Positions 21,072 to 23,133 of a stretch of 64,000 bases of DNA are shown here, piece by piece; position 1 is the stretch's first letter, and every line of letters starts with the position of its first letter. The DNA is taken from contig MU001690.1 in the NCBI GenBank assembly GCA_010093515.1, positions 1 through 64,000 on the forward strand, given 5' to 3'. Made by a program: the position numbers and the translations under genes. Origin of the DNA: Lineolata rhizophorae (Eukaryota; Ascomycota; Dothideomycetes; Lineolatales; Lineolataceae). A model generated the notes under the pieces. It worked only from the letters and a program-made list of their open reading frames with translations, made no database searches and was not told the DNA's origin.

Positions 21072-21534
21072 GACTCAAAAGCAGTTCATTACCCTGTTAT
21101 TGCTTAGCGCGAATAGATGCCGAGTACAGATTACACGAACAGGTGGTAATTTGTAAAGGAAGAGGACGTGAATTCGCTGCCTCGGAAATAGAAGGTTTTC
21201 ATCTCCTCAAATGGCCAAATCGTTGCTGGATATGGAATTGATGCGCATGTGGGAATCATGATCACTTTTATTTTTCTCCAAGTAGGATCGTATTATACAA
21301 CGCAGCCTAGTCCAGTAAGCCTGGTATATCCTTAAAAAGAGACCCACGAAGAGAGAAGACGCAGACAGTTGTTGAATCTCTTTAGCGCTTGAGAGCGCAA
21401 GGCTTTGTACTACGTTAGACTTCTCCGTGCCGCCCGCCAGTTTCTCAGTGGACTTCGTCGCGGTGGTCGCAATTTCGCGCACGATTTGTCCTAGAACACG
21501 CCACGAAGACCGTCCACTCGTCGGTAAGGTCCGC
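21072..21534. other. 3' intergenic region, P450 relic / egd1
   Basis: About 460 bases. It should contain the 3' UTR of egd1 (minus strand). No gene or RNA was recognised. Confidence 0.55.
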
Positions 21535-22397
21535 TTACTCGACGTCCGCCTCCTTCTTGCCCTCGAAATTTCCGCCCTCGACCAAATCAGGGATGTCGTC
21601 GTCATCGTCGTCATCCTTCTTGTCATCACCCTTCTCCTTCTGCATGCTCTGGTAGCTCTCGGCGAGCTTGCGGAGCGACGCCAGCGAGTCGGGCCCAAGC
21701 TGGTTGAGGATGCCGGGAACCAATTCCGTGAGTTCCTTGTCCTCACCGTTACCGTAGATGGCAAACGTGTTCGCGGGAACCGAGGCATGGACTGTTTAGA
21801 GCTTTCGTGTTAGAAGATGAGGTGCACCATCGCAAACGCTTGATCTCGACTCACCCTTGGGCGCAGAGAAATGAATAACGTTGCCGTCGCTCTTGAACAT
21901 ATTGACTTCCTCAATGGCCTGGATCGGCTGCACATTGAGCTTCTTCAATGATGCTTGCAGCTTCTTGTCATCGGTTCCACTACTCTTGTGCACTTTCTTG
22001 ACCTTGCGCCGTGGTGTGCCCTTGCCACTGATATTGAGGAACGCATTGTCAGCGATATTTGCTCCTAGGCTGCTACACCCATTGCCCCCCAACATTGGAG
22101 ATAGGCCGATTGCGATACTCAAAATGGGTTGGCGGGCCATCCCCAAGAGGCTTTCCTTTCGCCATTCCCTGGGGGTGACGGCATTGAGGACGGCAAACAG
22201 TCGAATAAACATAATAGAAGGCTTCTTACCCTAAAATCAATGCGTTAGCCACATGCTCCAGCGGGACTGCCGTGGACTCTGGCAGTCGTTGCCGGCGCGC
22301 AGAGCCGGACCCAGATCGCGCATCCATTGGACGTAGAGGACAATTACGTACCGATGCGCACCTGCTGTTGCATTCGTGCCAGCTTGGCCTGATCCAT
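21535..22397 (-). CDS. egd1: Nascent polypeptide-associated complex subunit beta, 158 aa
   Basis: NAC-beta binds emerging polypeptides at the ribosome exit with the alpha subunit. Exons on the minus strand: 22397-22352 ([15 protein letters not shown] plus one base), 22230 alone, 22027-21855 ([17 protein letters not shown] and on), and 21791-21535. Only this arrangement yields the invariant [12 protein letters not shown] core. The ribosome-binding RRKVKKV motif, the NAC domain (about 35-100) and an acidic [11 protein letters not shown] tail are all present, at the usual length. The single-base exon 22230 lies between TTTTAG and GTAAGA. Intron 1 (22351-22231, 121 nt) has a GCTAAC branch site; intron 2 (22229-22028, 202 nt) has CTGAC; intron 3 is 63 nt. 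Skipping the base would shift the frame. Gene identity is certain; the microexon is inferred from frame and splice signals. Confidence 0.93.
22230..22230 (-). other. egd1: Predicted one-nucleotide exon of egd1
   Basis: A single G on the minus strand, bounded upstream by the acceptor TTTTAG (22236-22231) and downstream by the donor GTAAGA (22229-22224). It completes the glycine codon GG|T between exon 1 (phase 1) and exon 3 (which starts with T before GGC AAG). An equivalent view is a nested intron pair in which removing the first intron creates the donor context of the second. Confidence 0.7.
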
Positions 22398-23133
22398 GAT
22401 GCCGGTTTGCGGTCTCGAGAGCGTATCTCAAACGAGCCCACTTACGAATATGCTTTAGATGACCTGATATAGAGCAGCGACCCAGTCAGCATAGGAAAAG
22501 TGGAATCCCAACGAGAGAGCATCCTGGAGAGTGTGGGTGGATGTTCGCGGGACTATGGATAATCCGAGCAAAAGGTGCGGATGTATGCGAGAGCAGCGCG
22601 AGAACGTACTTTTGAGGTGCGACGCAAAGGCCGGGAGGAGACGGTGGAGAAATGGATAGGTTCGGCGAGTTAGATGGTGGTTGAGCAGGACGATGGTCGT
22701 GGCCGAGCGAGATCACCGGGTGGTCAAAGACGCGGAGCCGCAGAGCGAGGCTGCCCCGGAGTCTGTGCGGCTCTCGCTAAATTTTCTGCGGCCACCCCAC
22801 TAGTCGACCGTCATCGAGTGCGGGCTCCAATGAGTTTTATATTGCGCCGTTTTGTTGTGTCTATATAGTTGCTAACTACAAGTACTCCCGTGTACAGTAT
22901 ACGGAAGCTTATTGACATCGGCCATTACGTTACTGCGGTTTTGAAACATGACATAATGCACAATGTTATCATACATCATGTGCACCTTGTAGGCTGCGCT
23001 CTACTGAGATGTAAAATGCCCATAGGGAATCTTGCGGGCAGACCGGCATTGATGAAATGCTAGAAGAGGTATCGTCATTGATTGATAATAATGAGTAAAA
23101 GAGCCCTCATCTTAAACCACCAAGCACACCTCA
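22398..23133. other. egd1 promoter and 3' flank of the SDR gene
   Basis: About 0.7 kb. The first few hundred bases upstream of the egd1 ATG should hold its promoter. The part from about 22,860 is AT-richer and is the 3' flank of the dehydrogenase gene. No further gene was recognised. Confidence 0.55.

Follow-up and report, generated by a model that had tools for sequence, protein, structure and literature searches.

A single nucleotide, the G at position 22230, very likely forms a complete exon of its own in the NAC-beta gene of Lineolata rhizophorae, as judged from the reading frame, a conserved protein motif and the annotation errors of related genes. Our explanation as a whole, which we hold with considerable confidence, is that this G would be a constitutive exon lying between two ordinary U2-type introns, that the structure is probably Pezizomycotina-wide, and that gene predictors misannotate it.

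The gene, a member of the egd1/BTF3 family, is located on the minus strand of the window (the whole 64,000-nucleotide stretch of DNA that was analyzed, whose coordinates are used throughout); its sequence was read directly and spliced by script. Exon 1 (22352–22397) encodes 15 residues plus the first base of a glycine codon and ends in ATC G; its product is 100% identical to the corresponding part of P0001, the public Lineolata rhizophorae protein that is the best match. It is followed by intron 1 (22231–22351; 121 nt, GTACGT..TTTTAG), the one-base exon (22230), intron 2 (22028–22229; 202 nt, GTAAGA..TATCAG) and a coding exon that begins with T GGC AAG (21855–22027). Intron 3 (21792–21854; 63 nt, GTGAGT..AACAG), which served as the control junction, precedes the last coding exon (21535–21791) with its TAA stop at 21537–21535. 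The sequence-only reading had assigned a branch site to each of the first two introns, and a motif scan located a branch-like site for each: CTAAC in intron 1 (22244–22248), whose A lies 15 nt upstream of the intron's last base, and CTGAC in intron 2 (22048–22052), where this distance is 22 nt. A PF01849 (NAC domain) match above the cut-off was found at 21856–21969, and this domain, together with an N-terminus of the form RIGGKG-T-x-RRK as seen in the BTF3 alignment, identifies the product as NAC-beta. The second NAC-domain match in the genome (L002, G000:C9:912520-912606) is presumably NAC-alpha. A search for an intronic RNA gene in 21400–22900 returned three Rfam matches (E up to 5), all far under their gathering scores.

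The need for the G follows from the frame. The mismatch proposed earlier from the letters, in which ATC G (ending at 22352) and T GGC AAG (starting at 22027) are one base out of register, was reproduced by the splicing script. When exon 1 is joined straight to the exon at 22027, the frame is lost after RI and a 42-residue ORF is left; retention of intron 1 or of intron 2 leaves 17 or 16 residues, respectively. The proposed series of acceptor, base and donor (TTTTAG-G-GTAAGA) is indeed present between the exons, and inclusion of its G, as the second base of the GGT codon in R-I-G-G-K, restores the core motif RIGGKG and a NAC-beta of 158 residues, all 158 of which are identical to P0001. The public annotation of this gene thus already carries RIGGKG (P0001), and the same motif is found in the BTF3 chain of solved structures. 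The G is flanked directly by AG and GT, the introns are complete on both sides, and the base is required for both the reading frame and the conserved motif.

Other splicing options were enumerated by script. Single introns were listed if they were at least 35 nt long, used GT, GC or AT donors and AG or AC acceptors, and kept the downstream frame and C-terminus; none of the 155 frame-keeping options (from 86 donors and 46 acceptors) gives RIGGKG. Five two-intron options run from the exon-1 donor to the acceptor at 22028 with a middle exon of at most 60 nt, and RIGGKG is obtained only from TTTTAG-G-GTAAGA; the option TGCCAG-A-GTCCAC, for example, gives RIDGKG.

The chance expectation for such a step was estimated by shuffling. 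The 324-nt interval between the two exons contains two AG-N-GT steps. The pattern [CT]AG-G-GT[AG]NG with an upstream CTRAY was present in 0.18% of 20,000 dinucleotide shuffles of 324 nt (0.45% with any middle base), and in 1.4% (middle G) or 3.9% (any middle base) when the branch-like site was dropped from the pattern, these percentages being a guide only, as the pattern was framed after the site had been seen. Genome-wide, CTAAC-N6-34-TAGGGTAAG was found at two sites in the 31-Mb genome, versus six for the reversed control; the motif is rare yet not enriched. The sole other genomic site is G000:C5:1069531-1069569 (L023).

The proteins of relatives provide a further line of evidence. Three protein searches, each represented by the best 120 of several thousand matches, yielded 267 different proteins (P0001–P0267), which were sorted by eye from the tables into 175 with an NCBI source (genome annotations) and 92 without. 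The contig size is known for 83 of the latter, and 81 of these 83 contigs are no longer than 3.4 kb (the exceptions are 5.2 and 15.5 kb); eight others have no contig size and one, P0171, is a UniRef record only. A full-length uninterrupted frame on contigs this short would point to spliced RNA or to an intronless gene. P0171 is a UniRef BTF3 record under the firefly Photinus pyralis that matches Sordariomycete NAC-beta, and is probably fungal contamination of insect data.

Among these best matches, the motif [RQ]-x-GG[KR] occupies the junction in 92 of the 92 proteins without an NCBI source (P0189 with Q) versus 33 of the 175 genome-annotated proteins (Fisher P = 7e-44, relatedness ignored). 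Two of the three search queries carried RIGGKG, which favors GG records in both groups alike. In the remaining 142 of the 175 genome-annotated records, residues are added, lost or wrong immediately ahead of RRK, a ribosome-binding motif. The control junction at intron 3 is intact in 165 of the 175 genome-annotated proteins (disturbed in the other 10) and in 89 of the 92 others. The control being mostly intact, the trouble is specific to the junction with the one-base exon. The 33 correct genome records may reflect either intron loss or evidence-based annotation. Four genome records that we assume to be from Xylariales (P0238, P0240, P0254 and P0260) have RTGGKG and may mark a lineage in which one intron was lost. 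In an alignment of 21 proteins both glycines are invariant, but nearly all of these proteins were picked with GG and the alignment was given no weight.

We then asked what the false residues spell; the counts and P values that follow ignore relatedness among records. The disturbance could be anchored at the junction in 124 of the 142 records, and three classes of error can be read. In the first class, a single residue is inserted (47/142, or 53 if RIGKGTPR-like records are counted in): T in 17, I in 12, D in 10, E in 2, H in 2, and N, A, K and S in one each. The inserted residue is therefore T, I or D in 39 of the 47 (RIGTGK, RIGIGK, RIGDGK). A donor of the form GTNNGT offers a second GT four bases on, and its use adds GT-N-N to ATCG before T|GGC. 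Such a +4 shift predicts Thr from GTACGT, Ile from GTATGT, Asp from GTGAGT and Asn from GTAAGT, and a predictor that finds the correct frame lacking one base would be expected to make this move.

In the second class, the junction reads R-x-G-YV (16/142) or R-x-G-FV (1/142). The underlying codons, GGG TAY GTN or GGG TTY GTN, would be produced if intron 1 were removed, the G exon included, and the following GTAYGT (or GTTTGT) read through. A phase-2 donor, ATCGG|GTAYGT, also spells YV, but a single splice from it to T|GGC would be correct, and predictors would have had no reason to fail. In the third class, a stretch of junk ends in x-GGK (15/142), and x can be encoded by NYA in 13 of the 15 (P = 0.002, relatedness ignored), the other two being R and D. 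Retention of the last bases of intron 1 (YAG), with the end of the one-base exon serving as a donor, would place an NYA residue before GGK.

The remaining records were compared with the same junction. The residue before GKG can be encoded by NNT in 112 of 115 cases, as T|GGC demands; the exceptions are E, E and K in P0049, P0080 and P0109, which are presumably from lichen fungi. Among 29 records with longer inserts after R-x-G (other than YV or FV), 21 start with E, K, M or T, the residues expected from read-through of GTGAG, GTAAG, GTATG and GTACG. Five genome-annotated records (P0056, P0081, P0084, P0095 and P0112) have RIGKGTPR, one glycine short, and no simple splice explanation was found for them. 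Two further records, P0246 (Dichotomopilus) and P0253 (Colletotrichum karsti), combine NAC-beta with a PF07960 domain, which may be an artefactual gene fusion arising at this junction.

Could the relatives merely have a long intron that is hard to predict, with the one-base exon private to Lineolata or to a few species? This alternative is compatible with a real exon here. The interval is 324 nt in Lineolata, gene finders adjusted to the short introns of fungi can introduce spurious exons, and 63 of the 142 disturbed records fit none of the three error classes, leaving those errors without a simple reading. However, in the 47 records with a single inserted residue the predictors appear to have passed over the entire interval, so that its length did not stop them, and they apparently had no correct one-step junction to use. 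We thus consider a merely long intron an improbable account of the relatives.

The +4 shift could also be taken at face value, as a natural insertion. A donor 4 nt downstream (GTAATT, 22342–22347; TAC|GTAATT), spliced by script to the acceptor at 22028, defines a single 320-nt intron and yields RIGTGKG. Such an intron is canonical (GT-AG) and in frame, and T is inserted here in the 17 genome-annotated relatives mentioned above. Nevertheless, the insertion is present in none of the 92 proteins without an NCBI source, the inserted residue varies (T, I, D, N, A, S, H, E, K) within a motif that is kept in BTF3, and P0001 is without it. In addition, GTAATT is a weaker donor than GTACGT when judged by the fungal splice-site consensus. 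A natural insertion is therefore very unlikely; it predicts the mature junction ATCGGTAC|TGGC, versus ATCGG|TGGC with the one-base exon.

A single intron with a non-canonical end, ATCG|GT...CA|GTGGC, would give the same protein without any one-base exon. It has the merit of producing RIGGK from one splicing event, and the mature mRNA alone cannot distinguish it from the two-intron structure. Yet it accounts neither for the AG-G-GT step and the branch-like site that goes with it (0.18% of shuffles) nor for the recurrence of R-x-G-YV (16 records) and of NYA-encodable residues before GGK (13 of 15), and we give it only a very slim chance. An assembly error, in which a G was lost at an exon edge beside one ordinary intron, is compatible with the window taken alone, and one base would restore the frame. 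It is scarcely credible given that 142 of the 175 genome-annotated records, from many species, are disturbed here, whereas 165 of the 175 have an undisturbed intron-3 junction. The sequence-only reading had proposed a one-base exon, or a splice pair behaving as one, and had mentioned the nested introns (stwintrons) of ascomycetes. The one-base exon is well supported by the frame, by P0001 and by the relatives' annotation errors; stwintrons of the [D1,2], [D5,6] and [A2,3] types were considered and rejected, since each intron has a complete donor (GTACGT or GTAAGA) and a complete acceptor (TAG or CAG) of its own, with no overlap between the two.

The disturbed records span the Dothideomycetes, Eurotiomycetes, Lecanoromycetes, Leotiomycetes, Orbiliomycetes, Pezizomycetes (Peziza echinospora) and Sordariomycetes, the classes to which we take their species to belong. 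Lineolata rhizophorae itself, whose relatives the sequence-only reading had sought among the Sordariomycetes, belongs to the Dothideomycetes (Lineolatales). Different error classes occur within one genus: all three in Fusarium, two in Colletotrichum and two in Trichoderma. Fusarium oxysporum has both a +4 shift (P0200) and a retained intron end (P0227), and Monilinia fructicola (P0105) has RTGGKG where M. fructigena (P0144) has RTGYV. The mixture of error classes in Fusarium and Monilinia suggests one old structure that was misread in several ways. Judging from these protein errors, the one-base exon is likely common to several Pezizomycotina classes, and the structure may date to the Pezizomycotina ancestor. 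Scans of viral contigs and of prokaryote genomes yielded no genomic sequence of the gene from relatives.

With the one-base exon included, the mature mRNA would read ATC G-G-T GGC AAG (RIGGK). An exon of one base has no room for U2AF, bound at the acceptor before it, and U1, bound at the donor after it, at the same time. Given this collision, introns 1 and 2 are probably removed successively. If intron 1 were removed first, the newly formed ATCGG|GTAAGA, a recursive step that the sequence allows once intron 1 is out, could serve as the donor for intron 2; this order is our suggestion. The G exon is presumably included constitutively, and gene predictors that cannot write an exon of one base would then misannotate the NAC-beta junction. 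Since skipping of the exon and both intron retentions stop early (42, 17 and 16 residues), mis-splicing would be null. Control of NAC-beta through exon skipping, which the sequence-only reading proposed as a regulatory switch and the early stops might permit, is speculation. It is doubtful, too, whether an exon already present in the Pezizomycotina ancestor has been kept as a splicing gate, with the two-step or recursive excision setting the level of the ribosome-bound chaperone NAC-beta.

If the DNA of relatives confirms the structure, a core gene of translation would have retained a one-base exon throughout an entire fungal subphylum. The records with the error pattern include Aspergillus and Trichoderma, so the exon is possibly present in such laboratory-friendly genera. 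Under confirmation, how the spliceosome handles an exon without room for both splice-site complexes would become directly testable, as would whether introns 1 and 2 are removed in a fixed or a free order. The proportion of genome-annotated NAC-beta records that look wrong beside the RRK motif (142/175) also matters for annotation pipelines.

No publication joining NAC-beta with microexons or with Ascomycota introns was found in our search, subscription journals lying mostly outside it. Several known systems can be compared with the NAC-beta case, as far as the available parts of their reports describe them. In plants, a one-base exon (A) in Arabidopsis APC11 was tested by mutation and RT-PCR (Guo and Liu 2015, PMC4674806), and one-base microexons of APC11 and VPS55 occur across land plants, being absent, according to the accessible text, from the reference annotation in all species of the study (PMC8831610). 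NAC-beta would resemble these plant genes in having a one-base exon, conservation over a large clade and annotation that often misses it; the difference is that they are plant genes. A single base between two introns is also described in an Ophiostoma strain, but there the introns are mitochondrial group II introns (PMC12308204). Stwintrons are defined, in the part of the source available, by an internal intron that splits a splice element of an external intron (PMC9024468). The [D1,2] stwintrons (PMC9024468) share with NAC-beta two U2 introns at one place, an ascomycete host and, probably, successive removal; unlike them, the NAC-beta introns interrupt no splice element of each other, and one exonic base would be kept.

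The closest likeness is CYP621A, in which a one-base exon (G, within AGGGT) is reported in 20 Fusarium orthologues and confirmed by SRA reads (Nelson and Syed 2026, PMC12940212), and which its authors, in the text available, call the first one-base exon for a fungal gene (PMC12940212). Like NAC-beta, it is a nuclear ascomycete gene in which an AG-G-GT core lies inside a conserved glycine motif (PMC12940212). CYP621A, as far as the report describes it, is a rarely expressed P450 in one genus, whereas NAC-beta is a core translation gene in which the one-base exon has a far wider predicted range. The NAC-beta case would thus add to the known one-base exons, with a predicted range much wider than that of CYP621A.
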